Source of the DNA: Tabrizicola piscis
Lineage (GTDB): Bacteria; Pseudomonadota; Alphaproteobacteria; Rhodobacterales; Rhodobacteraceae
Assembly: GCF_003940805.1 (NCBI RefSeq)
Contig: NZ_CP034328.1
Location: 3,906,001-3,970,000 of the forward strand
DNA: 64,000 nt
Reading direction: 5' to 3'
The position numbers were made by a program, and so were the translations under genes. Under the pieces are notes generated by a model. It had not been told where the DNA came from. It made no database searches and saw only the letters and a program-made list of their open reading frames with translations. Positions 44,076-60,858 of the stretch are shown in pieces (positions within the stretch are counted from its first letter, which is position 1; every line of letters starts with the position of its first letter).

Positions 44076-46691
44076 ATGTCGAAGCACTTCTCCGCTACCC
44101 GCAACAATATCGCCGTGCCGATGCCCGTCCTTGAGACCTGGACATTGCCGGCAGCCTTGGATGACCCAGGGCTTACCATGGCCGACTTCGGGCCTGTCGC
44201 CGCGCCCAGCGTCACTGTAGAGGCAACCTTCGCCACTTCCCCCGGCTGCGGCTGCGTTGGCTGCTCGATCGGGACGACAACTGAAACCAGCTCCTCCGAT
44301 ACCAGCGGTTACGCCGAGAATGGCAGCCTGGCGACTACCACCTCGGTCGGGCTGTCGGGTAACGCAGGCATCGACGCGCTGCTCTCCGGCATCCGCTGGG
44401 CTTCGACGATCAGCTACAGCGATCCGGACAGCAGGTTCGATTATCAGTCCGGATATTACGTGGACTCCAACGGCAATGGGTCCAGCGCGCAGTCCGAAGG
44501 CTTCTCGCAGATCAGCCCCGCAATGCTTGCCGCGCTGCGATTTGCACTTGATGCCGACGCAGGCGTAAGCGCCGCTCGGGGCTTTGCGATCGAAGGCTTC
44601 ACAAACATCAAGATCGACTACGCGGGCTCGGGTTCGGGTGCAGGAACGATCCGGGTCGCAAACTCGTCAGATGCGCCGACCGCCTATGCATTTTATCCGG
44701 ACGGGTCGATGTATGGCGGTGATTCATTTTTTGGAACCTTCGCACGCAGCCCGACGGCGGCCGGCAACTACAGCTGGCATACGATGCTTCACGAGATGGG
44801 CCATTCGCTTGGCCTGAAGCATGGGCATGAGTTTTCCTTCGGAGGCGCGCTGCCCGCAAACATCGACTCGAACGAATATTCGGTGATGACCTACCGCAGT
44901 TTCGTCGGTGGCACGACCCAATACGCGACGTGGGAAACCTGGGGCGCGCCTCAGACCTACATGATGTATGACATTGCAGCGCTTCAGCACATGTATGGCG
45001 CCGATTTCTCGACCAACTCTGGCAATACAACCTACACGTGGAACCCGACCAACGGGCAAACCTTGATCAATGGTGCCGTGGCGATCAACCCCGGCGCAAA
45101 CCGGATCTTCGCGACAATCTGGGACGGTGGTGGGATCGACACCTACAACCTGTCGAATTACAGCACCAACCTGCTCATTGACCTCACTCCCGGCGGGCAT
45201 TCGGTCTTTTCCAGCGCACAGCTGGCAGACCTCAATGATACAAACTGGATCGGGCTTGGGCCGCAGTATGCCCGCGGCAATATCTTCAACGCGCTGCAGT
45301 TCAATGGGGATTCCCGGTCGTTGATCGAGAACGCGAACGGCGGATCGGGGAACGACATGCTGCTTGGCAATACTGCCAACAACCTGCTGAACGGGGGTGC
45401 AGGGAACGATACGCTGGTGGGCGGAGCAGGCAACGACACCTACGTTGTCTCCTCGGGCGGTGACCAGGTGTTTGAGACGACGACGACCACGAGCACCACC
45501 GACGCGGGCGGCATCGACACGGTGCAAAGCTCGATCAGTTTCAGGCTGGACACCACTGACGGGATCCGCTTCGTCGAGAATCTGACACTGACCGGGTCCG
45601 GCAACCTCAGCGGCACCGGCAACTCGCTTGCCAACATCCTGACCGGCAATGCTGGCAACAACACCCTATTCGGCGGGCTTGGCAATGACACGCTGAACGG
45701 CGGTGCGGGCAACGACACGCTGAACGGCGGTGAAGACGGCGATACGATGGTTGGCGGCGCAGGCAACGACCTTTACGTGGTCAGTTCCACTGGCGACCTA
45801 GTATTCGAGACGACGACGACCACCAGCACCACCGACGCGGGTGGCATCGACACGGTGGAAAGTTCGGTCAGCTTCAACCTGAACGCCAATGCCGGGGTCC
45901 GCTTTGTCGAGAATCTGACGCTGACCGGGACTAGCGCCGTTGAGGGCACCGGCAATTCCCGCGCCAACATCCTGACCGGCAACTCAGGGGACAATATACT
46001 GCGCGGCGCTGCAGGAAACGACACGCTGTACGGCCTTGACGGTAACGACACGCTGAACGGTGGCGCCGACAGCGATACGATGGTCGGTGGGGCGGGCAAT
46101 GACTACTATTTGGTCAACTCGACCGGTGACCGGGTATTCGAAACCACGACGACCACCAGCACGATCAACGCGGGCGGCATCGACACGGTGCAAAGCTCGG
46201 TCACTTTCAGCCTGAACACCAATGCCGGGGTACGCTTTGTCGAGAATCTGACGCTGTCCGGGGCTAGCGCAGTCAACGGCACCGGCAATTCGCTTGCCAA
46301 TACGATCACCGGGAACACGGGGGCGAACCAGCTGAATGGCGGGCTTGGCAGCGATATACTGACGGGTGGCCGTGGAGCGGACAGCTTTGTCTTCAACACT
46401 GCGCTCGGTTCCGGAAATGTTGACAGGATCACCGACTTCGACGTTCTGGCCGACTCGATCCGGCTGGAGAATGCGATCTTCATCGGTTTGTCCGGCGGAA
46501 CCCTTGCCGCATCGGCTTTCGCTGCCAACATGACAGGCGATGCGACGGATGCGAGAGACCGGATCATCTATGAAAGCGATACCGGGAATCTCTACTTTGA
46601 TAGCGACGGAACCGGTTCGGCAGCGAAGGTGCACTTTGCAACTGTGGACACGCGTGTTGCACTGACAAACGCGGATTTCTTCGTGTTCTGA
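44076..46691 (+). CDS. Serralysin-like M10 metalloprotease with RTX repeats
   Basis: An 871-aa secreted protease. No signal peptide, as expected for type I export. The zinc motif HEMGHSLGLKH (His239, Glu240, His243, His249) is followed by the Met-turn YSVMTYRSF; then Peptidase_M10_C and RTX nonapeptides (GGxGxDxLx) with calcium sites (GGAGNDTL). From residue 465 three repeat units start at 45468, 45801 and 46134, exactly 333 bp apart, each opening with VFETTTTTST. A CGCVGC motif lies near residue 58. Ends in the hydrophobic VTNADFFVF-like tail typical of type I signals. The secretion genes follow after a strong hairpin. Confidence 0.93.
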   Translation: MSKHFSATRNNIAVPMPVLETWTLPAALDDPGLTMADFGPVAAPSVTVEATFATSPGCGCVGCSIGTTTETSSSDTSGYAENGSLATTTSVGLSGNAGIDALLSGIRWASTISYSDPDSRFDYQSGYYVDSNGNGSSAQSEGFSQISPAMLAALRFALDADAGVSAARGFAIEGFTNIKIDYAGSGSGAGTIRVANSSDAPTAYAFYPDGSMYGGDSFFGTFARSPTAAGNYSWHTMLHEMGHSLGLKHGHEFSFGGALPANIDSNEYSVMTYRSFVGGTTQYATWETWGAPQTYMMYDIAALQHMYGADFSTNSGNTTYTWNPTNGQTLINGAVAINPGANRIFATIWDGGGIDTYNLSNYSTNLLIDLTPGGHSVFSSAQLADLNDTNWIGLGPQYARGNIFNALQFNGDSRSLIENANGGSGNDMLLGNTANNLLNGGAGNDTLVGGAGNDTYVVSSGGDQVFETTTTTSTTDAGGIDTVQSSISFRLDTTDGIRFVENLTLTGSGNLSGTGNSLANILTGNAGNNTLFGGLGNDTLNGGAGNDTLNGGEDGDTMVGGAGNDLYVVSSTGDLVFETTTTTSTTDAGGIDTVESSVSFNLNANAGVRFVENLTLTGTSAVEGTGNSRANILTGNSGDNILRGAAGNDTLYGLDGNDTLNGGADSDTMVGGAGNDYYLVNSTGDRVFETTTTTSTINAGGIDTVQSSVTFSLNTNAGVRFVENLTLSGASAVNGTGNSLANTITGNTGANQLNGGLGSDILTGGRGADSFVFNTALGSGNVDRITDFDVLADSIRLENAIFIGLSGGTLAASAFAANMTGDATDARDRIIYESDTGNLYFDSDGTGSAAKVHFATVDTRVALTNADFFVF
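45468..46466 (+). repeat. Three tandem 333-bp repeats within the protease gene
   Basis: Unit starts at 45468, 45801 and 46134, each 111 codons after the last. Each begins VFETTTTTST.(N/D)AGGIDTV, runs through a strand-rich segment (RFVENLTLTG or variant, GTGNS.AN) and ends with RTX nonapeptides; the third loses most of its nonapeptides and joins the C-terminal domain. Nucleotide conservation within the opening 60-70 bases is high, so recombination may vary the copy number. Confidence 0.85.
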
Positions 46692-46697
46692 CGTGAA

Positions 46698-46740
46698 TTG
46701 GCCGACGTGCGCGCGGCTGCGTCGCGCGCGCGTCGGCCAA
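46698..46740 (+). promoter_or_regulatory. 18-bp stem hairpin after the protease gene
   Basis: Arms 46698-46715 and 46723-46740, opening TTGGCCGACG and closing CGTCGGCCAA, with one T-G wobble and the 7-base loop GCTGCGT. It begins 6 bp after the protease stop and has no T-run. It may protect the protease mRNA 3' end or reduce expression of the downstream secretion genes relative to the protease, as puf hairpins do. Confidence 0.8.
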
Positions 46741-46987
46741 CGGCTGCTCTGGTGGGGGGGCGGTACAGTCGCCGAACTTGGCGAGTGCGCTTGCAGCCGG
46801 GTTTCCGACAATTCCGCGGCCAAGCCTCGGGCAGTCAGGTTCTTGTTGATGCAAACGGGGATGGCGTGGCAAAGATCACACTGCCTTCAACCGGCCTGAC
46901 AAACGCCATCTAGATGACGACAGATGTTTAACAGTTCCGATGTACCTTCGGGGAGCAGTATAGGATCGAGGTAGTACTATCCCGGAC

Positions 46988-48697
46988 GTGAGTGAACTCA
47001 GATCGGCACGTCGCGAATCCACCAGCCTTGCTCTGGCGGCGCTGTTGTTCAGCATGTTTGTGAACGCGCTCATGCTGACTGGCCCCCTTTATATGCTTCA
47101 GGTCTATGATCGGGTGCTGGGCAGCGGGTCGGAGGCCACGCTGGTGGCGCTTTCCGTCCTTGTCGTGGGGTTGTTCGTGGCCATGGGCGTGCTGGAATAC
47201 GCCCGAAGCAAAGTCATGGCCATCGTGGGCGCCCGCTTTCAGGAGCGGCTGGACCGTCGGGTCTTTACCGCAGCGATGAAGCGGTCAGCAGTCGTACCGA
47301 ACGACACAGCAGCGATCACCGCGCAGCGCGACCTTGAGGCTATCCGCACATTTCTTGCCTCACCCATCCTCCTCGCCCTGATGGACCTGCCTTGGACCCC
47401 CTTGTTCATCGCTGCGATCTTCATATTCCACCCGCTTCTGGGTTGGTTGGCGGTTGTGGGCGGCGCGACGCTGATCGCGGTGACCGTTCTGAACCAGATC
47501 CTGTCCAAGGCCCCGCAAAAAGAAGCGGGTTTGGCTTCCGTCCAATCCGAGCGGATCGCTGACCAGTTGAAGGCCGAGGCTGAAACCTTACAGGCGCTTG
47601 GCATGTCTGGCGCTGGCTTTGACCGTTGGCAAAGTGCGCGAACAACGTCTTTGGCCAAGGGAATGGTGGCTGCAGGTGTGGCTGGTGGTTTCGGCGCCTT
47701 GACCAAGACATTTCGGCTTTTCCTTCAGTCGGCCATGCTGGGCCTTGGGGCCTGGCTCGTCCTGCAGGACCAGTTGACAGCGGGGGCGATGATTGCAGGA
47801 TCCATTCTGATGGGCCGTGCGCTGGCACCGATCGAAACTGCCGTCGGACAATGGTCTTTGGCGCAGCGTGCAAACGAGGCCTGGCACAGGCTGGCGGAAC
47901 TTCTGAAGAGGGAGCCAATACCGCAGCCGCGCACGGCACTGCCGCGGCCAAGGGCCATTCTGGAGGTTGAGGGCGTCAGCATCGGTCCTCCGGGTGAACA
48001 GGTAGCCCTCTTGCGTATGGTGAGTTTCCAACTTGCGCCCGGACAAGCCCTTGGCGTGATCGGCCCCTCAGGTGCGGGGAAGTCGACACTCGCCAAGGCA
48101 TTGACCGGGGTCTGGCGACCGCTGGTTGGCAAGATCCGACTGGACGGTGCCGCGATCGACCAGTACGACCCGGATGTTCTGGGCCGTCTGATCGGCTACT
48201 TGCCACAGCGGATCACGCTGTTCGACGGAACAATTGCCGAAAACATCGCGCGGCTGGACATACAGCCCGACAGTGCACGGGTCGTGGAAGCTGCCAAGAA
48301 GGCGGATGCCCATGACATGATCGTCCGATTGCCGCAAGGCTATGATACACGCGTGTCCGCTTCGGGTGGGCGGCTATCCGGCGGTCAGATGCAGCGGATC
48401 GGCCTTGCAAGGGCACTTTATGGCGATCCGGTCCTTCTGATCCTGGACGAGCCGAATTCGAACCTCGACAACACCGGCTCCATCGCTCTGAACGCAGCAA
48501 TTCGGACGATGAAGGCCGAGGGGAAGTCGGTCTTGATCATGGCGCACCGGCCAGCGGCGATTCAGGAATGTGATCTGCTTTTGGTTCTGGAAGATGGGCT
48601 GCGTAAGGCCTTTGGTCCGCGTGACCAGGTGTTGCGCGATCAGGTGAAGAACCATACCGAGATCCTGAAGCCCGTCGCCCCGGGAGTTGCGCCGTGA
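46988..48697 (+). CDS. Type I secretion ABC transporter (PrtD-like)
   Basis: A 569-aa inner-membrane ABC protein. N-terminal membrane domain (LALAALLFSMFVNALMLTGPLYMLQVYDRVL) typical of PrtD/HasD-type exporters without a C39 peptidase, then ATPase with GPSGAGKSTLAK, LSGGQMQR and ILDEPNSNLD. Starts with GTG. It should energise export of the upstream M10 protease. It overlaps the next gene by 4 bp. Confidence 0.92.
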   Translation: MSELRSARRESTSLALAALLFSMFVNALMLTGPLYMLQVYDRVLGSGSEATLVALSVLVVGLFVAMGVLEYARSKVMAIVGARFQERLDRRVFTAAMKRSAVVPNDTAAITAQRDLEAIRTFLASPILLALMDLPWTPLFIAAIFIFHPLLGWLAVVGGATLIAVTVLNQILSKAPQKEAGLASVQSERIADQLKAEAETLQALGMSGAGFDRWQSARTTSLAKGMVAAGVAGGFGALTKTFRLFLQSAMLGLGAWLVLQDQLTAGAMIAGSILMGRALAPIETAVGQWSLAQRANEAWHRLAELLKREPIPQPRTALPRPRAILEVEGVSIGPPGEQVALLRMVSFQLAPGQALGVIGPSGAGKSTLAKALTGVWRPLVGKIRLDGAAIDQYDPDVLGRLIGYLPQRITLFDGTIAENIARLDIQPDSARVVEAAKKADAHDMIVRLPQGYDTRVSASGGRLSGGQMQRIGLARALYGDPVLLILDEPNSNLDNTGSIALNAAIRTMKAEGKSVLIMAHRPAAIQECDLLLVLEDGLRKAFGPRDQVLRDQVKNHTEILKPVAPGVAP

Positions 48698-49998
48698 GCG
48701 CGCCATACGCGCAGTGGTCAGCAACACGGCCGCTGTTCTGGGGCTTTCTTACATTGACACTTCTGGTGGCGGGGCTTGGTGTCTGGTCGATCTTCACCAC
48801 CCTGGCCGGTGCGATCATCGCTCCCGGCCGGATCGAAGTTTCCCTTAACCGACAGGTGGTGCAGCACCCGGACGGTGGCGTTGTCGAAGAGATTCTCGTC
48901 CAGGACGGCGCGGACGTCTCTGCAGGGGATGTCCTTTTGCGACTGGATGGCAGCGCGCTGCGGTCCGAGCTGGCCATTGTCGAAAACCAGCTTCTGGAAC
49001 TGGGTGCGCGACGGGCGCGGCTGGAAGCGCAGCGCGACGAGTCGGATACCGTCGTTTTTCCCGAAATCCTGCTGGCCGCGGCGACCGGCCGCCCTTACGC
49101 CGCCGAAATTCTGGCTGGTCAGGCAAGTCTGTTCACCAAACAAGCCGAGGCCCTGATCCAGGCACGTGAGCAGCGGCAGACGAGGATCGAACAGATCGAA
49201 AGCCAGATGACCGGGCTTGCGGCACAACAAGAAGCAATCGCGACCCAGACAAGGCTTCTCGAGGCGGATCTGGTGACACAGCAAGACCTGTTGGCAAAGG
49301 GGTTGACGCAAGCGACCCGGGTTTCGGGGCTTGAACGCGAACTCGCCCAACTGAAGGGCAGGATGGGAGAGTTGATCTCGGCGCAGGCGGAGGCAGCGGG
49401 GCGGATCACCGAAATCGACATCGAGATCACCGCGCTGACCACCCAGCAGCGTGAAAAGGCCGAGGCGGAGTTGCGCGATGTTGCAGCCCGTCAACTGGAA
49501 CTGCAGGAGCGTGAAGGGGCCTTGGCCGAACGTATCGCACGTCTTGATGTCAGGGCACCTTCCTCAGGTCTTGTCCTTGGGCTGACGGTCACCACGCCGC
49601 GATCCGTCATCCGTCCGGCGGATGACTTGATGTTCATCGTCCCTCAGGATCGTCCGCTCCTTGTGGCTGCGCGGGTACCGGTCACGCATGTCGACGAGGT
49701 TCGCCCCGGCCAGGATGTTCGCCTGGTCTTTTCTTCTCTGCCCTCCCGCACGACGCCGGAGGTGACAGGGAAAATCACGCTTGTTTCGGCCGATGCCCTA
49801 TCCGATGAGCGGACCGGGATAACCTATTTCAGAGTCGAGATCGCTTTGGATGCGGCAGCCTTGCAGCAACTGGGTGAGGTGGACATCATTCCTGGCATGC
49901 CGGTTGATGCTTTCATTCTCACCACAGACCGAACGCCGCTATCCTATCTGCTTAAGCCGTTCACGGACTATTTTCGCAGCGCCTTCCGGGAAACATGA
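48694..49998 (+). CDS. Type I secretion membrane-fusion protein (PrtE/HlyD-like)
   Basis: A 434-aa protein: one N-terminal membrane helix (WGFLTLTLLVAGLGVWSIFTTLAG), lipoyl half-motifs (VVQHPDGGVVEEILVQDG and the RLDVRAPSSGLVLGL part), long coiled coils between, and a beta-barrel C-terminus. It bridges the ABC transporter and an outer-membrane TolC channel. No TolC gene is beside it; the tolC at 8548 is the obvious partner in the window. Confidence 0.92.
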   Translation: MSAPYAQWSATRPLFWGFLTLTLLVAGLGVWSIFTTLAGAIIAPGRIEVSLNRQVVQHPDGGVVEEILVQDGADVSAGDVLLRLDGSALRSELAIVENQLLELGARRARLEAQRDESDTVVFPEILLAAATGRPYAAEILAGQASLFTKQAEALIQAREQRQTRIEQIESQMTGLAAQQEAIATQTRLLEADLVTQQDLLAKGLTQATRVSGLERELAQLKGRMGELISAQAEAAGRITEIDIEITALTTQQREKAEAELRDVAARQLELQEREGALAERIARLDVRAPSSGLVLGLTVTTPRSVIRPADDLMFIVPQDRPLLVAARVPVTHVDEVRPGQDVRLVFSSLPSRTTPEVTGKITLVSADALSDERTGITYFRVEIALDAAALQQLGEVDIIPGMPVDAFILTTDRTPLSYLLKPFTDYFRSAFRET

Positions 49999-50121: not shown

Positions 50122-50317
50122 TGTCGGGTTGCTGACCCTGTGCCGGCAGCAGTCATGGCCATTGTCAAAGACAAATACCGTGATATTGATATGTTTGTTG
50201 AAGGCTTGTCGTCATTCTGTGGATAAAGGCCTGCTGTTTCAGAGCAGTTGAGGTCTTTGCGGCCTGATTGCTTTGAAGGGTCGGCCGAATTCGGTTGAAC
50301 GCCTTGGGGGGTCTGCG
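50122..50317. other. Gap before the cyclase gene
   Basis: About 196 bp after the transposase remnant. AT-rich stretches at 50171-50200 (CCGTGATATTGATATG) could hold a promoter. No gene is seen. A run of G (GGGGGG near 50305) serves as the ribosome site for a TTG start at 50318. Confidence 0.45.
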
Positions 50318-53300
50318 TTGCTGTGCCCGAATTGCGCTACAGACAATCTTCCGAATGCAAAGTTTTGTCAGGAGTGTGGAAACAAGCTTGCCCGCGTTTG
50401 CATGACCTGTGGTGCGGAAGCCAAGCCTGAAGCGAAGTTCTGCATAGACTGCGGCGCGCCCTTCAATCCCGATGCAAGGTACAATTTGCCCGACGCCGCA
50501 GCTTCTTCCGAGAAGGCCTTGGCGTCGAGCCGTGAACAAACGGACCCTGCCGATGTCCATGCCGAGCGGCGCCAAGTCACCGTGTTGTTCAGCGATCTTG
50601 TCGGATCGACTGCGATTTCCGGGCTGCTTGATCCCGAAGACTACCGCGAGCTGATCGCGCAATACCGCATACTCGTTACCGACATAGTGGCAAGGTACGA
50701 TGGAAGCGTTGCGAATTTTGTTGGCGACGGAGTCGTTGTCTATTTTGGCTATCCGGCCGCGCATGAAAGCAGCGCCTATGCCGCTGCCCTTGCAGGGCTG
50801 GACATCGTCGATGCGGCACCCGGTATCGGACGTCTTTTCAAGGACTATGATCTGCAAACCGAGGTGCGCGTCGGTTTGCATACTGGGTTTGTGGTTATCG
50901 GACAGACCGGCTCTGGCATCCATGAAGAGAAACGTTCGCTGTTTGGCGATACCCCGAACATTGCCGCCCGCATTCAAGCCCATGCCAAAGCGGGGCAGAC
51001 CTTGGCGTCAGCATCGACGCGGCGGCTGATCGGGTCGCAATTGGTGTTCAAATCGCTTGGTCTGCAAGCGCTGAACGGAGTGCGCGAGCCGATCGAACTG
51101 TTTCAGGCGCATCGGCCGACGACGGCATCGGCCTTTATCGAGAGCCACACCCTACATCCAAAGACACCGACGATCGGCCGCCATGCCGAGATAGCCCTCG
51201 TCGCAACCCGCTGGAATGACGCGATCGAGGGTGACGGGCAGGTCATGGTGATCTCCGGCGAGGCGGGGATAGGCAAGTCGCGGATTGTCTTCGCGATGGA
51301 CCAGGAGTTGGCCGAGGGGACCACCAGCCGATTGGCGCTGTTCGGATCGGTGATCCATAAGAATAGCGCCTTCTACTCGGTCCGATTGGCGTTCGAGGCC
51401 TTGCTGGGCTTGGCGGACTCGGATTCGATCGAGTTCAAGCGCGAAAAGCTGTTGGTCTATCTCGCCGACCTGAAGCTTGATCCGGTTCTGGTTGGCGAAC
51501 CGATCTTGGAACTTCTGGGCGTTCCGGATGCTACGGGCATGGTCCGGCCGCCGTCATTCCCAGAACGCGAGAAGACCAAGATCATAAAGGCGCTCTTGCA
51601 GCTTTGTGCTGCGATGTCAGAGCGCAAGCCCCTGTTGATGCTCATCGACGACGTGCATTGGATCGATCCTTCAACGCTGGAATTTCTGTCGCGCTGGATC
51701 GAAGCCATGCCATTGCGGCGCTGTCTGATGTTGATCACCGCACGCCCGGAGTTCGAGTCGCCCTGGAAAAACCTGGCGCATGTCTCGGCACTGGAACTTA
51801 ACCGGTTGGGCCGCCGCGAGTCGATAAAGCTGATTGAAAGCATTGTTGGCAGGCCCATGCCCGAGCCGTTGATGCAGCAGATTGTTTCAAGAACGGACGG
51901 CGTGCCGCTGTTCATCGAAGAATTGACCAAGATGATCGTTGAGGCAGGCTTTCTGGAAGGCACTGCCGATTTCAGAGAGGATCTGTTGCATTCCATCCCT
52001 GAATCGCTGCAGGCCTCGCTTCTGGCACGCCTTGACCGCATGTCCGAAGTCAAGGAGGTGGCGCAAGTCGCTGCCGCCATAGGCCGAACCTTTCAGCGTC
52101 CACTGTTGGCGCGCGTTCAAGGCGGAAGCGACGCGCTGGTTCAGGCCGCACTTACAAAACTGATTGATGCTGACCTGGTAGTGCCGGTTGGCGACCATGG
52201 GGACGAACCGACCTACCGCTTTCGCCATGCCCTTGTGCAAGAGGCGGCCTATCAGTCGATGTTGCGTGTCTCGCAAGTCAAATGGCACGGCAAGATTGCC
52301 GAGGTGCTTGAACGCGATTTCCCGGACACGGCCGAACGCGAGCCAGAGCTGCTGGCGCATCATTTCACGTTGGCCCGCAACCATCTGAAGGCTGAGACAT
52401 ACTGGTTCACCGCGGCGCGCGTGGCCATGTCGCGGTCAGCTTCGGTGGAGGCAATCGAACATCTGCGTCAAGCGCTGGCAAATCTTGCACACAGCCCGGC
52501 CACAGCTGAACGCGACCGTCGTGAATTGGACCTTCAAATTGCGGTCGCAGTTCCGCTGGCCTCGGTGCACGGCTACGCCCAGGAGAAAGTCCGAACCGCC
52601 TATGCCCGGGCCCGCGATCTTTGCGGCCAGTACGGCGAGACCGAAAAACTGTTCATGGTCGTTTATGGCCAGTTCCGTTCGGCCTTGATCGGGGGGGAAT
52701 ATGCAAGTGCCCTCGAACATGCCGAACTCCTCGTGTCGCTCCTCGATGGTCCGGACAACCCCGTTCTGACGGCTGCCTCTCTGCGTTCATTGGGGTCGGT
52801 ACTGATCTACCTGGGTCGGCCGCATGACGCGATGATCCATCTTGAGCGTGGTCTGAAAATCGAACTGACGATGGAAGATCGTCGGCACAGTCTTGGCTTC
52901 GATGTCGTGGATCTGCCGGTCGCTCTGCACGCCTATTCGGCCATCGGGCACTGGCTTGCAGGATCCAGCCATGCCGCGCGGACTGCAATCGAGAAAGCGC
53001 TCGTGCTTGCGCATGAAACGGACCATCCGTTCTCCATTTCATTCTCGTCAGCATTTGCCAGTTGGGTCTATCAATTCCTGGGCGACGAAGCGGCGCTCAA
53101 GAAATGCTCGGCAGATCTGATTGCCTTGTCGGAATCGAACACGTTTCATTTCTGGCTTGGCTGGGGACGCATCATGAATGGCTGGGCGAGGCGGGAGGAA
53201 CTGGGTGACACTACGCTGGACGTCATTGAACAGGGCCTAGCAGAATGGCACGGCACGGCTTCGGGTGTCGGCTCAAGCTACTTTGCATACCTGCATGCCG

Positions 53301-53686
53301 ATGCAGCGCTTTATCTGAATCAGTTTGACAAAGCCCGTGAATTGATCGGCGCGGCTCAGTCCTTTGAAAGAACCAGTGGCGAGGCGTTCTGGCGCCCTGA
53401 ATTGATCCGCCTGAACGGCGAAATTGCAAATCGAAGTGGAGACTTAGACTCCGCGCAGCAATTCTGGCAGCAGGCCCATGACATCGCGGCAGAAACTGGC
53501 ATGCGATTTCCGCAGCTTCGGGCTGCGGTCAGCATCGCCCGTGCAGCCGATGGACCGTCAGGCCGCACTCATGCGGTCGAACTGCTGGGGAAGGTGTTGT
53601 CGGAACTCGAGGAAGACAGTCAGGCCGCCACCGATGCGAAAGCGCTGCTGCGGGCTTTGGAACAACAGGGGAGTGGACCGGAATGA
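50318..53686 (+). CDS. Zinc-ribbon/adenylate cyclase/AAA-ATPase/TPR signalling protein
   Basis: A 1122-aa multidomain protein. Two zinc ribbons (CPNC...CQEC and CMTC...CIDC) at residues 3-45, a class III cyclase (VTVLFSDLVGST with metal Asp, FVGDGVVVYFG, DTPNIAARIQ; about residues 85-265), an AAA ATPase (Walker A GEAGIGKS, Walker B LLMLIDDVHWID; about residues 280-500), then TPR-like helical repeats to the end. The start is TTG at 50318 with a G-run ribosome site and CPNC close to the N-terminus, as in relatives; a TTG at 50273 is the longer alternative. Likely makes cAMP in response to a signal sensed by the ATPase/TPR part. Confidence 0.88.
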   Translation: MLCPNCATDNLPNAKFCQECGNKLARVCMTCGAEAKPEAKFCIDCGAPFNPDARYNLPDAAASSEKALASSREQTDPADVHAERRQVTVLFSDLVGSTAISGLLDPEDYRELIAQYRILVTDIVARYDGSVANFVGDGVVVYFGYPAAHESSAYAAALAGLDIVDAAPGIGRLFKDYDLQTEVRVGLHTGFVVIGQTGSGIHEEKRSLFGDTPNIAARIQAHAKAGQTLASASTRRLIGSQLVFKSLGLQALNGVREPIELFQAHRPTTASAFIESHTLHPKTPTIGRHAEIALVATRWNDAIEGDGQVMVISGEAGIGKSRIVFAMDQELAEGTTSRLALFGSVIHKNSAFYSVRLAFEALLGLADSDSIEFKREKLLVYLADLKLDPVLVGEPILELLGVPDATGMVRPPSFPEREKTKIIKALLQLCAAMSERKPLLMLIDDVHWIDPSTLEFLSRWIEAMPLRRCLMLITARPEFESPWKNLAHVSALELNRLGRRESIKLIESIVGRPMPEPLMQQIVSRTDGVPLFIEELTKMIVEAGFLEGTADFREDLLHSIPESLQASLLARLDRMSEVKEVAQVAAAIGRTFQRPLLARVQGGSDALVQAALTKLIDADLVVPVGDHGDEPTYRFRHALVQEAAYQSMLRVSQVKWHGKIAEVLERDFPDTAEREPELLAHHFTLARNHLKAETYWFTAARVAMSRSASVEAIEHLRQALANLAHSPATAERDRRELDLQIAVAVPLASVHGYAQEKVRTAYARARDLCGQYGETEKLFMVVYGQFRSALIGGEYASALEHAELLVSLLDGPDNPVLTAASLRSLGSVLIYLGRPHDAMIHLERGLKIELTMEDRRHSLGFDVVDLPVALHAYSAIGHWLAGSSHAARTAIEKALVLAHETDHPFSISFSSAFASWVYQFLGDEAALKKCSADLIALSESNTFHFWLGWGRIMNGWARREELGDTTLDVIEQGLAEWHGTASGVGSSYFAYLHADAALYLNQFDKARELIGAAQSFERTSGEAFWRPELIRLNGEIANRSGDLDSAQQFWQQAHDIAAETGMRFPQLRAAVSIARAADGPSGRTHAVELLGKVLSELEEDSQAATDAKALLRALEQQGSGPE

Positions 53687-53789: not shown

Positions 53790-54728
53790 GTGATGACCAA
53801 GCCAAAAGAGAGTCCGGGTAGGGGTCAATTGCCAGAGTCTGGCATTATGCCGAAGTTGCCACAGCAATTCAGTTCGTTTCCATTCTATTACGCCTCCCTG
53901 CAATGCCAATGGATCTACTGGTACACCTCCGTGGAAGCGGCAGAGCCCTACGTAAAGGGCACTGGACTGCGCGTTGCCCGCTTCCCCGTCAAGAATGAGA
54001 AGGGTGAAGATGAGGACCGTGCCGTCATTGTCCTCAATTTTCAACGCTACACGTCGCACTACAGCAACGGCCTTGGCACAACAAACGAGGTTGAATTCAA
54101 CCTTTTGGCCTACCCTGCCAATCGGGTTCCGGGCGTACCAAAGATGCCGCTGTGGGAATATCTGTATGGCAATGACCAGACTGAGACGATCGGCCACCTA
54201 AGGCTGCATGTGGCCGCAGACAACAAAGTTGCCGTCGAAGCCGGGCGCGAAGTGTTTGGTGAGCCGAAGTTCTATGGGGTCTTCAACTACGAAGTTCCAT
54301 CGCTCAATGCCCCAATGTCGACCGGAATTCCGCCAACGCAAATACAGAAGTGGCGGATACAACTTGTCAGCCCCGACGACCCAGATGATTTCGTGTACCG
54401 ATTGCAGTCGGACTTCACCGGGTATCAGTGGACCAAGACCGACTCCACGCCGATTCCGGAGTTTGCAACTGGGCTTGGTCGAACCGTTTGGACGCGATGG
54501 ACCATTGTGGGGTTGTTCGACACAGCAATTCTGACAGGCGCGCAGGCAGCTGGCATAAGGCTTGAGATCGGCAAGAACGATTTTCCAATGACCAAGGACA
54601 TGCGCGCTTTGTTCAAGGATATGACGCCGGTTGCTGCGCAGATTTTTGAAAGTCCTCCCGCCTGCATAGAGCCGCGAGGTTTCTATATGGATGTATTGGA
54701 TCAGGATCACAATGATGACCGCACCTGA
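53790..54728 (+). CDS. Acetoacetate-decarboxylase-like protein
   Basis: A 312-aa soluble protein. The middle segment AGREVFGEPKFYGVFNYEV resembles the acetoacetate decarboxylase superfamily, where GREIWGFPKK carries the Schiff-base lysine; here a lysine is at the matching FGEPKF place. No signal peptide. First of a four-gene operon; its end overlaps the next gene by 17 bp. Superfamily membership is an inference; activity may differ, as many ADC-like proteins are not decarboxylases. Confidence 0.6.
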   Translation: MMTKPKESPGRGQLPESGIMPKLPQQFSSFPFYYASLQCQWIYWYTSVEAAEPYVKGTGLRVARFPVKNEKGEDEDRAVIVLNFQRYTSHYSNGLGTTNEVEFNLLAYPANRVPGVPKMPLWEYLYGNDQTETIGHLRLHVAADNKVAVEAGREVFGEPKFYGVFNYEVPSLNAPMSTGIPPTQIQKWRIQLVSPDDPDDFVYRLQSDFTGYQWTKTDSTPIPEFATGLGRTVWTRWTIVGLFDTAILTGAQAAGIRLEIGKNDFPMTKDMRALFKDMTPVAAQIFESPPACIEPRGFYMDVLDQDHNDDRT

Positions 54729-55200
54729 ATTCGAGTATGGCATCGATGACTTTGTCGCGATCAGTACTGTCCTTACCGGCTACTCAAGGGCGGAGCTGTT
54801 CGGAACTGGCTGCGCAGATGAGTACTGGCATCAATTCCGTCGCGTCGTACCGGACCATATCCTGATCGAATTTTTTAATGGTGCGGCGAAACTTGAGCGG
54901 TTGCAGGAAACCGATCCACAGGCTGTCGCGTTGGAGATAAGATCCCGCTACCTATCAAGCGAAAAGCTCGGGCCTCTTGCGCGGACCTTGATTCAGCTTT
55001 GGTATCTCGGTCAATGGGTTCCATTGCCACCTTCATGGCGCAGCCGGTTTGGGGCGTCACGGTTTGATGTAGCAAGAGTCATTTCCGTGCTCGCCTACAA
55101 GGAAGGGTTGGTCTGGGATGCAATTGGCGCGCATCCAATGGGTGCCAAACAGCAGGGATTTGGATCGTGGGCGGAAGCGCCGCCAAAAGGTGGGGTTTAG
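54712..55200 (+). CDS. Small subunit-like protein of an FAD sugar/polyol dehydrogenase
   Basis: A 162-aa helical protein similar to the small subunit of membrane-bound FAD dehydrogenases (sorbitol or glucose dehydrogenase gamma type): FVAISTVLTGYS, LIQLWYLGQW and YKEGLVWDAIGAHPMGAKQQGFGSWAEAPP. The last segment is the family's most conserved part. Unlike its relatives it has no Tat or Sec signal, so this complex may be cytoplasmic. It overlaps the ADC-like gene by 17 bp and is 3 bp before the GMC flavoprotein. Confidence 0.72.
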   Translation: MMTAPEFEYGIDDFVAISTVLTGYSRAELFGTGCADEYWHQFRRVVPDHILIEFFNGAAKLERLQETDPQAVALEIRSRYLSSEKLGPLARTLIQLWYLGQWVPLPPSWRSRFGASRFDVARVISVLAYKEGLVWDAIGAHPMGAKQQGFGSWAEAPPKGGV

Positions 55201-55203
55201 ACC

Positions 55204-57195
55204 ATGAATGTACCTCTGGATGACGAAGAGACCTATGACGTGGTCATCGTCGGCGCCGGGATTGCCGGGGGCATCCTGTCCAAGCAGTTGCTTGCAAAGG
55301 GGCGCCGCGTCCTGATCTTGGAGGCGGGCGCTGATCATGGCGATGATTGGCAAACCTACCGTGGCTATCTTGACCAATTCTACCTGAGCCTGGCAAAGGT
55401 TCCGAATTCGCCTTACCCGAATCTTCCCACTGTGCCTTCGCCTACGGTGCTTGATATTTCTTCCGTGCATGGCACCGCGCCGGACAGCAACGGCTATTTT
55501 GTTCAACGCGGGCCAATCCCATTTGGCAGCGATTACCTGCGTGCCTATGGCGGCACGACACTTCATTGGCTTGGAACATCTCTGCGCATGTTGCCCGCAG
55601 ATTTTGAGACTGCAACCCGCTACGGCCAAGGTCTTGATTGGCCCATCACCTACAAGGATTTGCTTCCATATTACGAAAAGGCCGAGTGGGAGATCGGAGT
55701 ATCGGCGGAGGTTGAAGACCAGACCCCGGAGGCTTTGGGTATCCATCTGGCGCGTCCAAGTGACGCCCATGGCTATTTCTCGGAAGACTACAAGTTTCCG
55801 ATGCATGCGATTCCGTGCTCCTACAGTGACACATATTTTGCGAAGGGTGTTGATGGTACCCCGATTGCGACGGGCTATCGACCCGATTTCGCCGATGAAG
55901 CGGAACCAGGTCTGGATTTCGTGAAAATCAGAGTTGCAAGTACTCCGCAGGGTCGCAATTCGGTTCCGCGCGTCCCAGTCCAAGAGGATGATGGGTTCAA
56001 TGTAGGCGGTGAGCGCGTAGAGCCCTTTCAGCCACGCGGGGCAACCGGATCCTTTGCATTCAAGGGGCAACGCTGCGAGGGCAATTCTGCCTGTATTCCG
56101 ATCTGTCCGATTCAGGCCAAGTATAACGCCATGAAAACCTTGGCAGATGCCCGGGCATTGGCAGAGACCAAGACTAGAAAACCCACTGATTCAGACGATA
56201 CAGACAAGTCTCCAGCGCGGATCGCTGAGATCGAGAAGAGTTTCAAGATCCGGACGCAAGCCATTGCAACACGCGTCGAGTTGGACGTGAACGGCCGGGT
56301 TAGCGGTATTGTCTACAAGTCGTACCTGTTCCCGGGCGTGCCGCAGTATGAATTGCGACGGGCGCGTGGGAAAACTTATGTTCTTGCAGGCGGTGCGATC
56401 GAAAACAGCACCTTGGCGCTGGCCTCGGGACTATGCCGATCAAGTCAGGAACTTGGCCGCAATCTCATGGACCATCCCTACATGATGGCCTGGGGGCTGG
56501 CGCGAGAACCGATTGGCGCCTTCCGTGGGCCCGGTTCAACCGCTGGGATCGAGTCGTTCCGCGATGGTGCGTTCCGTGACCAGAAGGCTGCGTTCCGCTT
56601 GGAACTTGGAAACTCTGGTTGGGATTTCGCAGCAGGCGCCCCGTACTCTGATGTAAAGAATCTGGTTGAGGGAGACAATCTTTTCGGGCCGGAGTTGCGG
56701 AAGAAACTCTATCACGATGTGCAACGTCAGGTTCGAATTGGCGTGCTGGTCGAACAGATGCCGGATGCTTCCAACAAGGTGACCATTGATCCGGCCTATG
56801 TCGACGCCATGGGTGAGTTTCGCCCCGTGATCAGCTACGACATCTCGGATTACTCTCGCGCAGGCTTGGCCTTCGGGCACAGCGCCTGCATGCAGATTTT
56901 TCAGCGGCTTGGTATAAAGAACTTCACAAACTATAACCCGTCTGACAACGGCTATCTGACATATGATGGCAGTGGCTACACAGTTTATGGTGCCGGGCAT
57001 CTGGTAGGCACCCACAGGATTGGCAACAATCCCAAGACGTCAGTGACCCGCCCCGATATGCGCACTCATGACCATGACAATTTGTGGATGGTGGGCTGCG
57101 GATCAATGCCGACGGCGGCAACGTCCAATCCGACTTTGACCATGGCCGCTATGGCTTTTCAGGCAGCCGAAGCAATAGACAGGGCGCTCGCATGA
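55204..57195 (+). CDS. GMC-family flavoprotein oxidoreductase with cysteine cluster
   Basis: A 663-aa FAD enzyme. FAD-binding VVIVGAGIAGGILSKQ near residue 15 and LILEAG; GMC signature regions YGGTTLHWLGTS and GAIENSTLALASG; C-terminal catalytic His in GAGHLVGTH and Asn in TSNPTLT. A cysteine motif C-x5-C-x3-C (CEGNSACIPIC near residue 295) matches the position where FAD-glucose dehydrogenases bind a [3Fe-4S] cluster. No signal peptide and no cytochrome c gene nearby. Acts with the small subunit gene and the ferritin-like gene with a 4-bp overlap. Substrate unknown. Confidence 0.87.
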   Translation: MNVPLDDEETYDVVIVGAGIAGGILSKQLLAKGRRVLILEAGADHGDDWQTYRGYLDQFYLSLAKVPNSPYPNLPTVPSPTVLDISSVHGTAPDSNGYFVQRGPIPFGSDYLRAYGGTTLHWLGTSLRMLPADFETATRYGQGLDWPITYKDLLPYYEKAEWEIGVSAEVEDQTPEALGIHLARPSDAHGYFSEDYKFPMHAIPCSYSDTYFAKGVDGTPIATGYRPDFADEAEPGLDFVKIRVASTPQGRNSVPRVPVQEDDGFNVGGERVEPFQPRGATGSFAFKGQRCEGNSACIPICPIQAKYNAMKTLADARALAETKTRKPTDSDDTDKSPARIAEIEKSFKIRTQAIATRVELDVNGRVSGIVYKSYLFPGVPQYELRRARGKTYVLAGGAIENSTLALASGLCRSSQELGRNLMDHPYMMAWGLAREPIGAFRGPGSTAGIESFRDGAFRDQKAAFRLELGNSGWDFAAGAPYSDVKNLVEGDNLFGPELRKKLYHDVQRQVRIGVLVEQMPDASNKVTIDPAYVDAMGEFRPVISYDISDYSRAGLAFGHSACMQIFQRLGIKNFTNYNPSDNGYLTYDGSGYTVYGAGHLVGTHRIGNNPKTSVTRPDMRTHDHDNLWMVGCGSMPTAATSNPTLTMAAMAFQAAEAIDRALA

Positions 57196-58286
57196 CCGGA
57201 GACAAGGCATTCAAAGAGGATCGTCAAGAACTTTGCGACCTGCTGCAGTTTGCGCTGATGGTAGAGCTTTCGACGATACCCCCCTATGCAACCGCCTGCT
57301 ATTCAATCAAGGAACAGGGGCAGTATGACCGAAGTTCACCCCAGATTGTGAACGCCGAGCCCATCGAGGTGATCCGGCAGGTCATGGTTGAGGAAATGCT
57401 TCATATGGTGCTGGTGGCAAATGTCATGAATGCAATCGGATGTTCTCCGATCATGACTGATCCGAAGCAGTTGCCAAGGTATCCGCAAAAGCTTTTGCGC
57501 GACAAGGGCCCGGAACTCAGGTTGCGTCGCTTTGATCGTGCGCAGGTCAAGTCCTTTAGGGAAGTGGAACGGGCTGTCGAAGATCCTGCCAAGGCACGGA
57601 AAGGCCAGTATGATACGATTGGTGGGTTTTACATTTTCGTCAAGGAACGCCTGAAGGCCGCAATCAAGACACATGGTGAAGGTTCGATCTTCATTGGCAA
57701 TGCCGACCTTCAGATCGGTGCAAGTGACTATTATGGGGCAGGTGGCACGATCATTCGGGTCATAAACGAGGAATCGGCCCTACGCGCTATCGACAAGATC
57801 ATGGACGAGGGCGAGGGGGCCAATCTTGGCGGGATGGCGGGCGACGGCGACCGGATCCCAGGCCCGATCGGGGAAGACCGAATGGACGTTGCCCATTATT
57901 TCAAGTTCAACGAAATCCTACACAGCCGATACTACCGGCCGGATGATCTTCATGACGCTCTGCCAAGCGGCGAAGATATGGTTGTGGACTGGAGCGCTGT
58001 CTGTCCGATGCGAGATGATCCAAGCTCACAGGATTATGTTGGACTTCCCGACATCCAGGCGCTGTCTGACAGCTTCAATGCAAGCTACAGCGCCTTGCTG
58101 CATGGGTTGGAGGCAGCTTTCAGCGGGAACAAGGATCAACTGCGCTCCCTTGTGCCCGTGATGTATCAGTTGCGCGACCGGGCGCAGAAACTTATGCGTG
58201 TCCCCTTGCCTGGCGTGGTTCCGACGGCAATGGCTGGGCCCACCTGGGAATACGTCGCGCCGCAAAAGACGACTGTGCAGGATTGA
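57192..58286 (+). CDS. Ferritin-like protein of the VioB/RebD (iminophenyl-pyruvate dimer synthase) type
   Basis: A 364-aa protein. The N-terminal 200 residues carry a ferritin-like four-helix di-metal plan: Glu25 in MVELSTIPPY and E-E-x-x-H in VEEMLHMVLVANVMNAIG, a pattern shared with the ferritin-like domain of VioB and RebD, enzymes that couple imines in indole alkaloid synthesis. Here that domain stands alone, without the other half of VioB. It overlaps the GMC gene by 4 bp, so it most likely oxidises or couples a product of that flavoprotein. Confidence 0.72.
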   Translation: MTGDKAFKEDRQELCDLLQFALMVELSTIPPYATACYSIKEQGQYDRSSPQIVNAEPIEVIRQVMVEEMLHMVLVANVMNAIGCSPIMTDPKQLPRYPQKLLRDKGPELRLRRFDRAQVKSFREVERAVEDPAKARKGQYDTIGGFYIFVKERLKAAIKTHGEGSIFIGNADLQIGASDYYGAGGTIIRVINEESALRAIDKIMDEGEGANLGGMAGDGDRIPGPIGEDRMDVAHYFKFNEILHSRYYRPDDLHDALPSGEDMVVDWSAVCPMRDDPSSQDYVGLPDIQALSDSFNASYSALLHGLEAAFSGNKDQLRSLVPVMYQLRDRAQKLMRVPLPGVVPTAMAGPTWEYVAPQKTTVQD

Positions 58287-58629: not shown

Positions 58630-60858
58630 ATGAAGCTTTGTTTCATTGTCCTGTTTAGCTCTCTTTGCGCAACAATGGCAACGGCTGATACTGTCGGGAC
58701 TTGGCCCTTCCAACCTGAAGAAGATACATTTGAAGACAGCGCCGCTTTGGACCTTTCTTACCTGAACGAGGAAGTGGCAGGCCAAAGCGGCTTTGTCGGT
58801 CGGTCTCCGGATGGCGCTTCGTTTGTGCGGGGCGACGGCACTCCGATCCGGTTCTGGGCGGTAAATACCGATGTCGCCAGAAAGGGACTGGACGAACTCC
58901 GGCAGCATGCGCGCTTCCTTGCGAAGCGCGGCGTCAACATGGTCCGGCTGCATGGCCAGATAGCGCTGCAGGGTCAAGCGGGCAGTCAGATTGCGGCGAT
59001 TGACTTGGCCGAGCGCGACCGATTGTGGCAACTGGTCGCGGCCATGAAGGAGGAGGGAATTTACACCACCTTCAGTCCCTACTATCCCCATGCGGTCCAA
59101 ACGGAGACGGCCCAGGACTGGGGTGTTCCAAGGGATAGCGGTGGGCTGACTGGGCTGATCTACTTCGAACCAGCCTTGCAGGAAGCGTACAAGAACTGGC
59201 TGCGTGAGACGCTTATCCCTGTAAACCCCTACACCGGTCTTGCGCTCAAGGATGACCCTTCGCTCGCCATCGTTCAGATGCAGAATGAAGACTCGCTTCT
59301 TTTTTGGACTTTTGGGGGCATAAAGGGGCACGAGGCATCGTTGCTGGGCACTTTGTTTGGACAGTTTCTTGAAAAGAAATATGGCTCTTTGGCCGTCGCA
59401 AGAGACGCCTGGAATTGGAGCGAGGCTCCGGGACCGATTGATGGAATGCAAGACGACTGGGACAAGGGTGTTATCGCCCTTTCAGACATCTGGTATCTGA
59501 CGTCTGACGGCGACGTTGGGTCTGCAGAGGTTAGGCTTCGTGACCAAGCCCAATTTCTGACCGAAACAATGCGAGAGTGGCATGCCGAGATTGCACGCTT
59601 CTTGCGCGACGATATTGGCGCCCGGCAATTGTTCAATGCTGGAAATTGGCGGACAGCAGACGACGTCGCGATGGACGATCTGGAACGCTATGCCTACACC
59701 GCTGGTGACGTCATTGGTGTGAATCGCTATGTCAGTGCTCTGCACGAGGGCGAGCATCAGGGCTGGGCGATTGTCGCTGGGGATGTCTTTCGCGAAGACG
59801 GTTTGCTCACCCGACCCTTGGACCTTCCCACAACGCTCCGACAGCCGGTTGGTCATCCTTACATGATCAGCGAAACCCTTTGGGTGCCGCCAATGTGGCA
59901 ACAGTCAGAAGGCCCGATCCTGATGGCGGCATATCAGGCGCTGACAGGCATGGATATCAGCTATTGGTTTTCCATCGACGAGACCCAATGGAGCCCCCCG
60001 CAAAGTGCAAATGGCTATTTGCCCAGCGTTGGCAAATGGGAGGTGGCGACACCCCAGCAAATCGGCGCTTTTCCCGCCGCTGCCTTGATCTTTCGCCTTG
60101 GGCTGATCGATGAGGCGCTGCCGGTCGTCATCGAGCACCGCAGTCTGGATGACCTTTGGTCGCGGGCAGGGCCACTGGTTGTCGCGCGGCAAGGCTATGA
60201 TCCGAACCGCGATTTCAGTCTTCGTGAGACTGATTTGCTTTCACGGTTTTTGGGGGCCTCACAAGTCAGTGCTTACAGTTTTCTCGTTGGTCCAGTTCAG
60301 GTCGCATTCGGCAGCGAGACTCCGGATTTTATCCACCCGGAGCTGGAAGGCCTTGTCGACAGCGAAAATCGTGTTGTCACTAGCCTTACGCGACAGTTGA
60401 TCTGGGATTGGGGGCAGGGTGTCGTGACGCTTGATGCACCGCGCGCGCAAGGCGTTTTGGGGGCGTTGTCCGCGCGACCTCGGATCGAATTGCAGGACGT
60501 GACGTTTGACAGCAAGGCGCCATACGCAAGCGTCGTCGTCGTCCCGCTGGATGGTGAACCGATTGCACGGTCTTCTCGCCTGCTGGTTCAGATCGGTAGC
60601 ATTGCGCGACCGACAGGCTGGCGAGCATCACCCGTGCAACACGAAGGGGGCCCGGCACTCGTCGTCGAAGAATTTGGTGGCGCGCCCTGGCAAGTTGACA
60701 CGATCGAGATGAGCCTGGCGGTCCGCAATCCCGGCCTGTCGCAGGCCACCGCGCTGGATGCGAACGGCATGGCGATGGGTGCGGTGGAAGTATCAAGAGC
60801 TGGTGGTTCCCTGACGTTAAACCTGCCGTCAGGCGCTCTCTACGTCTTGCTTAAATGA
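58630..60858 (+). CDS. Secreted GH-A-clan glycosidase-like protein
   Basis: A 742-aa precursor with a signal peptide (MKLCFIVLFSSLCATMATA). A TIM-barrel core (residues about 60-450) has the features of retaining glycosidases of clan GH-A: FWAVNTD, HARFLAKRGVNMVRLHGQ, the acid/base NE motif QMQNEDS (Glu220) and a nucleophile candidate in MISETLW (Glu415). The C-terminal 280 residues are beta-rich. Family (GH5, GH42 or other) cannot be set. It may degrade a glycan whose sugars feed the operon upstream; that link is inference. Confidence 0.75.
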   Translation: MKLCFIVLFSSLCATMATADTVGTWPFQPEEDTFEDSAALDLSYLNEEVAGQSGFVGRSPDGASFVRGDGTPIRFWAVNTDVARKGLDELRQHARFLAKRGVNMVRLHGQIALQGQAGSQIAAIDLAERDRLWQLVAAMKEEGIYTTFSPYYPHAVQTETAQDWGVPRDSGGLTGLIYFEPALQEAYKNWLRETLIPVNPYTGLALKDDPSLAIVQMQNEDSLLFWTFGGIKGHEASLLGTLFGQFLEKKYGSLAVARDAWNWSEAPGPIDGMQDDWDKGVIALSDIWYLTSDGDVGSAEVRLRDQAQFLTETMREWHAEIARFLRDDIGARQLFNAGNWRTADDVAMDDLERYAYTAGDVIGVNRYVSALHEGEHQGWAIVAGDVFREDGLLTRPLDLPTTLRQPVGHPYMISETLWVPPMWQQSEGPILMAAYQALTGMDISYWFSIDETQWSPPQSANGYLPSVGKWEVATPQQIGAFPAAALIFRLGLIDEALPVVIEHRSLDDLWSRAGPLVVARQGYDPNRDFSLRETDLLSRFLGASQVSAYSFLVGPVQVAFGSETPDFIHPELEGLVDSENRVVTSLTRQLIWDWGQGVVTLDAPRAQGVLGALSARPRIELQDVTFDSKAPYASVVVVPLDGEPIARSSRLLVQIGSIARPTGWRASPVQHEGGPALVVEEFGGAPWQVDTIEMSLAVRNPGLSQATALDANGMAMGAVEVSRAGGSLTLNLPSGALYVLLK

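Follow-up and report, generated by a model that had tools for sequence, protein, structure and literature searches.

The stretch analysed here comprises 64,000 nucleotides of Tabrizicola piscis DNA (assembly GCF_003940805.1, contig NZ_CP034328.1, positions 3,906,001 to 3,970,000) and is referred to as the window, with positions counted from its first letter. It contains a gene block in which a flavoprotein of the GMC family is encoded directly before a ferritin-like protein. Judged from its sequence, the block is a patchily distributed unit of five genes, which encode a nucleotide cyclase (CYC), a protein resembling acetoacetate decarboxylase (ADC), a dehydrogenase small subunit (SSU), the GMC flavoprotein and the ferritin-like protein (FER). 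The first-pass annotation had described the last four as one operon. The four open reading frames (ORFs) lie where it had placed them and are conserved as one operon, but the unit has five genes and the upstream cyclase gene had been overlooked. The family assignments were borne out for the ADC-like protein (weakly in Pfam), the small subunit, the GMC protein with its Fe-S motif and the PF12902 protein. The five genes are:

50273..53686, plus strand: CYC, zinc ribbon/class III cyclase/AAA/TPR protein of 1137 aa with a TTG start (true start unsure), from Pfam and motifs
53793..54728, plus strand: ADC-like protein of 311 aa, with a weak PF06314 match and invariant E101, E157 and K159
54715..55200, plus strand: SSU, 'hitchhiker' small subunit of the flavin adenine dinucleotide (FAD) sugar-dehydrogenase type, without a twin-arginine translocation (Tat) signal, from profile matches
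55204..57195, plus strand: GMC flavoprotein of 663 aa, of the type of the catalytic subunits of glucose and fructose dehydrogenases, from PDB 6a2u and PF05199/PF00732
57192..58286, plus strand: FER, ferritin-like protein of 364 aa, PF12902 at 1e-42

Gene order and conservation

All five genes are found in the same order and on the same strand in 9/9 close loci, in which FER is at least 58% identical: the window, seven loci from Defluviimonas (two), Ruegeria (three) and Shimia (two) (L002-L008), and one Ruegeria plasmid (L033). A tenth locus, G101 (FER 51%), has kept ADC-SSU-GMC-FER and lacks the cyclase gene; no class III cyclase was found within 5 kb. The order ADC-SSU-GMC-FER is thus confirmed in 8/8 close loci and in G101, which is more than chance. 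The junctions are tight. The gaps of -17, +3 and -4 bp given earlier hold for the start codons that had been chosen, namely a GTG at 53790, one codon ahead of the ADC-like ATG at 53793, and an ATG at 54712 for SSU, the second ATG being at 54715. In the eight relatives the ADC/SSU junction is -14 in 8/8, SSU/GMC ranges from -17 to +2, and GMC/FER is -4 in 8/8. Since the ADC/SSU overlap is constant, the second ATG (54715) is indicated as the SSU start.

The cyclase gene of the window lies 106 bases upstream of the ADC-like gene, and in the close loci this spacing is 42-106 bases. Over 36 cassette pairs the identity values of the cyclase correlate with those of ADC (r 0.97), SSU (0.92), GMC (0.98) and FER (0.96). 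Sixty other genomes of the family were compared, of which 10 gave a match to the cyclase at 1e-30; the cyclases found there are at most 35% identical to that of the window, as against 47-61% for those of the cassettes. Given its presence in 9/9 cassettes, and the related arrangement of L036 described below, the cyclase gene would hardly seem a chance neighbour of the redox genes.

FER is rare: at 1e-10 a match was obtained in 4/295 genomes of the family, and at 1e-6 in 9/292 genomes of the order, four of which reach at least 50% identity, the own genome being included in each count. The cassette FER was not found in four other genomes of the genus that formed part of the order-level search. 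Flanking ORF clusters common to different genera look like broad families and not like specific neighbours, as in the case of short-chain dehydrogenases (cluster 6: L006, L008, L033 and the window) and ABC ATPases (cluster 5: L004 and the window); neighbours of a specific kind recur only inside a single genus (Shimia, Ruegeria or Defluviimonas). No description of the cassette was found in the open full-text literature, a search outside which most subscription journals fall.

The dehydrogenase-type pair and the third gene

The GMC protein aligns with the catalytic subunit of the Burkholderia FAD glucose dehydrogenase (BcGDH; PDB 6a2u, E 2.7e-54) and with the large subunit of fructose dehydrogenase. 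Dehydrogenases of this type serve in direct-electron-transfer (DET) biosensors. The features of a DET-type catalytic subunit, as far as sequence motifs can tell, are all kept in the window, including the C-x5-C-x3-C motif noted in the first-pass annotation (GMC residues 291-301):

55564..55566, plus strand: codon of His121 (GGTTLHW), which aligns with the His that binds FAD in BcGDH (His105 in the excerpted text of PMC6719666)
56074..56106, plus strand: CEGNSACIPIC with C291, C297 and C301, a [3Fe-4S] motif aligned to the cluster Cys of BcGDH
56998..57129, plus strand: stretch with His599 and Asn642, probable catalytic pair, from motifs, alignment and the pair described in the excerpted text of PMC6719666

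According to the same excerpts, the FAD glucose dehydrogenase carries its FAD on a His, a surface [3Fe-4S] cluster on three Cys and a His/Asn pair, and is completed by two further subunits, a small one that is a Tat 'hitchhiker' and a cytochrome c with three haems; the complexes described there hand their electrons to the cytochrome subunit outside the cytoplasm (PMC6719666). The cassette resembles these and the related fructose and sorbitol dehydrogenases in the GMC motifs and in the small-subunit gene upstream. It differs from them in that the Tat signal and the cytochrome c gene are missing, PF12902 takes the third position, and ADC-like and cyclase genes are added.

The profile of the cassette SSU aligns with the small subunits of four cytochrome-type operons (hhalign probability 92.6, E 4.4e-7); among PDB profiles it has one match at E<=1, a weak one (E 0.055) to the small subunit of fructose dehydrogenase. 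PF12318 proteins provide a link: alignment to the window SSU gives 4.2e-11 for that of L108 and 1.3e-5 for that of L105. G149 and W153 are invariant in 20/20 aligned sequences. An N-terminal RR signal is present on the small subunits of L102, L103 and L104 and is not seen at the annotated start of that of L109. In 9/9 cassettes SSU has neither such a signal nor a strongly hydrophobic N-terminal stretch; the sole RR of the window SSU falls at residues 43-44 (counted from 54715), inside the fold. The earlier claim that export signals are absent agrees with a motif scan of the window, in which the N-terminal 40 residues of ADC, SSU and FER contain no twin-arginine. The suggestion that these are cytosolic forms of proteins with exported relatives is likewise supported by the SSU N-termini and the family matches. 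The haem-binding motif C-x-x-C-H is absent from every window ORF scanned, and in L002-L008 and L033 it occurs only once, in an L006 ORF outside the cassette.

Among the GMC regions found on plasmids eight were opened, and four of these (L102, L103, L104 and L109, from Gluconobacter, Ketogulonicigenium, Pantoea and Thioclava) contain the order small subunit-GMC-cytochrome c. Their cytochromes carry 2-3 C-x-x-C-H motifs each, and no FER was found in the 3 kb fetched on each side. A further region, of Azospirillum ramasamyi (L108), reads cytochrome C-small subunit-GMC, with a GMC 40% identical to that of the window and a single C-x-x-C-H in the gene annotated as cytochrome C. On plasmid pMOC1 of Methylobacterium oryzae (L105) a PF12318 small subunit and a 3Fe-4S-type GMC are followed by PF12902 as the third gene, as in the window; this locus differs in that no ADC or cyclase match was obtained in the 11.6 kb fetched around it. 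In Gloeothece (L107) the order is GMC-PF12902-SSU. Finally, a search with the joined GMC and FER sequences yielded a natural fusion of the two, P0265 (1008 aa, on a 642-kb contig), which shows 44.8% identity to GMC (residues 5-662) and 34.1% to FER (residues 12-356), and keeps the FAD-His, cluster, NPTLT, EEMLH and GEG motifs.

On a tree built from 29 GMC proteins, four changes of the FER label are required, two of which are forced by well-supported branches; with the long rows L056, L036 and L106 dropped (26 rows) two are required, one of them forced. The trees make a repeated exchange of partners of the GMC protein possible. The C-x5-C-x3-C spacing is found in 24/29 rows, and the other five, referred to as the GMC' group, have C-x5-C-x2-C.

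Members of the GMC' group also occur as SSU'-GMC'-FER on plasmids typed conjugative or mobilizable, namely pRlX3 of R. johnstonii (L054), p3 of Rhizobium sp. NZLR1 (L066) and pME152 of Methylorubrum (L057), where they adjoin IetA/IetS, TIR-domain genes, and SIR2 and PLD-like genes, respectively. In L054 and L066 the gene before them encodes a protein that has one C-x-x-C-H and a signal-like N-terminus; a comparison of the L054 protein with the L108 cytochrome showed no relation. Two GMC genes of Cupriavidus (L051:5121-7883) were read as pieces in different frames.

The ferritin-like, ADC-like and cyclase proteins

The PF12902 domain of FER begins at residue 18 of 364. Residues E25, E67, E68, H71, E126, E208 and H235 are identical in 52/52 aligned relatives, chosen from the 120 matches listed, and most of them are candidate metal ligands:

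within 57192..58286, plus strand: putative metal ligands E25, E68, H71, E126, E208 and H235, from alignment columns

Profile comparison gives a match to 3hl1 (2.1e-23) and one to the bacterioferritin 1nf4 (7.7e-4), the latter with only E25, E68 and H71 in register. Iron-sulphur proteins are found near other members of the family: in P0078 PF12902 is fused to CDGSH and Fer4_19 Fe-S domains, and in Streptomyces the gene after a PF12902 gene (L055:7830-9730) encodes a CDGSH protein with a Fer4_19 match below threshold. The conserved candidate ligands, the GMC-FER fusion and these Fe-S neighbours support a role of FER as a metal-binding partner that may accept electrons.

To our knowledge, roles of PF12902 have been described solely in coupling reactions of the violacein/rebeccamycin type. 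The first-pass annotation had called FER a VioB/RebD-type enzyme. This stands as far as the PF12902 domain, and a flavoprotein oxidant in the same operon, are common to both; the strict VioB type is not supported. The NCBIfam VioB model TIGR04492 does not match the window FER at E<=0.1 (it touches two of four PF12902 proteins from other loci weakly, at 0.0018 and 0.0058). The VioB N-terminal half of about 600 residues is neither fused to this stand-alone protein of 364 aa nor encoded adjacent to it, the gene before FER being that for GMC. The partner amino-acid oxidases of VioB and RebD are VioA and RebO, and here their place is taken by a GMC protein of the sugar-dehydrogenase type.

By all appearances from the loci examined, PF12902 is broader than VioB. 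Its partners include 3Fe-4S-type GMC proteins (the group to which the window FER belongs), the second GMC group, VioB-N-like, LodA/GoxA-family, FIST-GAF-cyclase and CDGSH proteins. The VioB-N-like partner is recognised in L035 (TIGR04492 1.1e-6) and by relation in L042, L063 and L064; LodA/LodB-like neighbours are given by annotation in L064 and by our own reading only in L045 and L048. The split VioB-like pairs of L035, L042, L063 and L064, in each of which a VioB-N-like protein of 611-671 aa adjoins the PF12902 protein, are possible natural-product loci that have not been studied. The pair of L064 (Mycetohabitans) lies near LodA/GoxA-family and tryptophan-halogenase-annotated genes.

The ADC-like protein of the window matches PF06314 with E 7.9e-6 and 26 bits, under the cut-off of 29.8, and the precomputed annotation of an identical protein, P0121, gives PF06314.17. 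The same domain is found at E<=0.01 in 28/48 aligned relatives, and 13/105 relatives carry the precomputed label. K159 (GEPK; codon 54267-54269) is identical in 48/48, and E101 and E157 are likewise invariant. Counting along the Pfam match rather than from a structure, K159 appears to stand at the place expected for the Schiff-base Lys, a likeness to the acetoacetate decarboxylase family that goes together with the weak domain match. An ADC-like gene is found with SSU-GMC elsewhere as well: in Cupriavidus, where FER is present, in Streptomyces, where it is not, and in G846, there with SSU-GMC-GMC-FER.

CYC consists of a double zinc ribbon (residues 18-61), a class III nucleotide cyclase domain (99-274), an AAA_16/STAND-like ATPase (301-484) and a TPR region, according to Pfam, and its motifs FSDLVGS, NIAAR, GEAGIGKS (P-loop) and LMLIDD appear intact. 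The cyclase-AAA-TPR architecture is shared with the TOMM kinase-cyclase model TIGR03903, on which CYC scores 451.4 bits, below the cut-off of 705.75; it differs from that system in its N-terminal zinc ribbons and in having no kinase domain match in Pfam. In both Defluviimonas loci (L002:236-946 and L003:235-945), and in these two only of the nine cassettes, a protein with a domain for binding cyclic nucleoside monophosphates (cNMP; PF00027 2.1e-11), and with hydrophobic N-terminal stretches by eye, is encoded upstream of the cyclase. Since such a protein precedes the cyclase, a working second messenger becomes more likely in these two loci. A third protein with a hydrophobic N-terminus and a cNMP-binding domain is encoded by a divergent second copy, at L031:10482-11208.

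A class III cyclase was found within 5 kb of PF12902 in 3/17 unrelated genomes (G453/L036, G570/L046 and G532/L049) where 0.33 were expected (P ~0.003); the count was made after the pattern had been seen and is therefore a lead only. In L036 one strand carries a 186-aa ORF in the SSU position, GMC', FER, DUF3237 and a zinc ribbon/cyclase/AAA/TPR gene, with a GMC of the different group.

Possible functions of the cassette and its flanking genes

With a probability of about 0.5, we propose that the cassette encodes a cytosolic variant of the FAD sugar/alcohol dehydrogenases in which the cytochrome has been replaced by a ferritin-like partner, the ADC-like protein processes the carbonyl product and the cyclase controls or reports the reaction. 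With FAD and a [3Fe-4S] cluster as cofactors, SSU and GMC would be the catalytic pair that oxidises a substrate of alcohol, polyol or sugar type, after loss of the Tat signal and the cytochrome c subunit of the fructose, glucose and sorbitol dehydrogenases. In a complex with this pair FER would stand in for the cytochrome, taking electrons from the surface cluster to a di-iron-type site and from there to O2, either as a plain oxidase or through a second oxidation of the product. A carbonyl-forming oxidation followed by Lys chemistry is a natural guess for the ADC-like protein, whose Lys159 might attack the new carbonyl in a decarboxylation or aldol-type step. The zinc-ribbon/cyclase/STAND-like protein, finally, may sense an internal cue and form a cyclic nucleotide by which the pathway is controlled or reported. 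A wider version, which we put forward tentatively and consider rather doubtful, is that PF12902 includes cytosolic, di-iron, O2-using acceptor subunits that replace cytochrome c in FAD/[3Fe-4S] dehydrogenases and in one or more proteins are fused to such an enzyme, the oxidase being wired here to a cyclase that turns a metabolic or redox event into a cyclic-nucleotide signal. If true, the ferritin-like partner in a cytosolic dehydrogenase would be a new route of electron disposal, PF12902 would gain a testable function beyond coupling, and through its tie to the STAND-like cyclase a redox enzyme would acquire a signalling output.

Several observations weigh against the dehydrogenase with a ferritin-like acceptor. 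SSU-GMC pairs occur without FER, in Roseibium (L106) with no cytochrome either and in L056 together with ADC. FER is also found with the GMC' group (L036, L043, L054, L057 and L066), the spacing of which is not that of a 3Fe-4S site, and the FER of M. oryzae is just 27% identical to that of the window over 209 residues. P0265 is a single fusion sequence on one contig among the best 120 of 1497 matches. The occurrence of PF12902 beside VioB-N-like, LodA/LodB-like and FIST-GAF-cyclase genes implies that uptake of cluster electrons cannot be its sole role. Most of the compared loci were found via FER, so that the FER-GMC link is over-sampled. SSU belongs to no Pfam family, with a single-sequence search giving only an unrelated chain at E 0.74, and for the ADC-like protein no PDB relative, or other solved relative, was found by sequence.

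The first-pass annotation had proposed a natural-product operon, in which GMC oxidises an amine or alcohol, FER couples two products in the manner of VioB/RebD and the ADC-like protein trims the result. Its family basis, the PF12902 domain common to FER and VioB/RebD, was upheld; PF12902 elsewhere adjoins VioB-N-like genes (L035) and, in Mycetohabitans, lies near the LodA/GoxA-family and halogenase-annotated genes mentioned above, and ADC-fold enzymes occur in natural-product pathways. The proposal seems unlikely, however, given a GMC of the sugar-dehydrogenase type, no match to the VioB model, and a five-gene unit without a VioB N-half, amino-acid oxidase, nonribosomal peptide or polyketide synthase, tailoring or export gene. 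Catabolic oxidation of a sugar or polyol, with FER as a mere accessory subunit and the dehydrogenase feeding a keto-sugar pathway, is quite unlikely for the window, where no GH15, IolE-like, transporter or isomerase gene belongs to the unit and the cyclase and ADC-like protein would be left unexplained. It is favoured by relatives in rhizobia and Agrobacterium, where L059 and L060 read GH15-SSU-GMC-GMC-FER-SSU-iolE-sugar isomerase/epimerase and L061 and L062 have one GMC; these four operons possibly represent an unrecognised keto-sugar route. The cyanobacterial GMC-FER-SSU of L107, about 1.3 kb from a glucan glucosidase gene, fits the same idea.

The cyclase raises the question of a conflict or anti-phage system resembling Pycsar, with the cyclase/STAND-like protein as sensor and the redox module or a cyclic-nucleotide receptor as effector. 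CYC matches the PADLOC PycC models at 2e-15, and the Defluviimonas cNMP proteins match the TIR-effector (5.3e-10 and 7.8e-11) and PycTIR (3.7e-9 and 4e-10) models over their receptor half. The patchy distribution of FER in the family and the IetA/IetS, TIR, or SIR2 and PLD genes beside SSU'-GMC'-FER on the rhizobial and Methylorubrum plasmids point in the same direction. The PycC models, however, may match any class III cyclase; no effector gene was recognised in the window, and the cNMP protein is confined to the two Defluviimonas loci. Of 55 flanking ORFs of eight cassettes, just three match mad3 and one mad8 at 1e-10, in a count for which the L002 cNMP protein falls just below the limit and its L003 twin lies outside the 55; a second PF00027 member was counted among them. 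The phage records gave no match, and viral contigs gave four partial ones, of 33-36% over at most residues 10-91. With few PADLOC matches in the flanks and no match in phage records, defence was rejected as the principal explanation and is kept as a very unlikely rival. The least probable alternative is that FER is a maturase or iron donor that provides GMC with its covalent FAD bond, its cluster or some other modification. According to the excerpted text of PMC4417212, fungal loci contain PF12902 genes of unexplained function close to lodA-/lodB-like genes, and LodA may be modified by its LodB-like partner; the LodA/GoxA-family neighbour in L064 is in line with this. But the four cytochrome-type loci share the His and cluster motifs with no FER in the flanks fetched, and a permanent fusion, as in P0265, is easier to reconcile with a working subunit than with a maturase.

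Promoter-like sites in the window are at background (5 found, 4.0 expected), and the terminator-like sites (14 against 8.3 expected, sd 3.0) include none useful at gene ends. Downstream of the cassette, 58630-60858 encodes a 742-aa protein with a signal-like N-terminus, which has no Pfam or NCBIfam match at E<=0.1 and no match at 1e-40 in any of the 20 other genomes searched within the genus, of which several are incomplete. No window ORFs beyond HlyD were found in stretches from five genus relatives, a weak test as two of the contigs end within ~1-3 kb, and an insertion site could not be drawn from these relatives. Upstream, at positions 44076-49998, an 871-aa ORF is followed by the ABC and HlyD genes of type I secretion. 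The HlyD homologue is present at 1e-40 in 20/21 genomes of the genus, the own genome included, and the adjacent ABC gene is also kept in the five relatives fetched, with HlyD identities of 69-81%.

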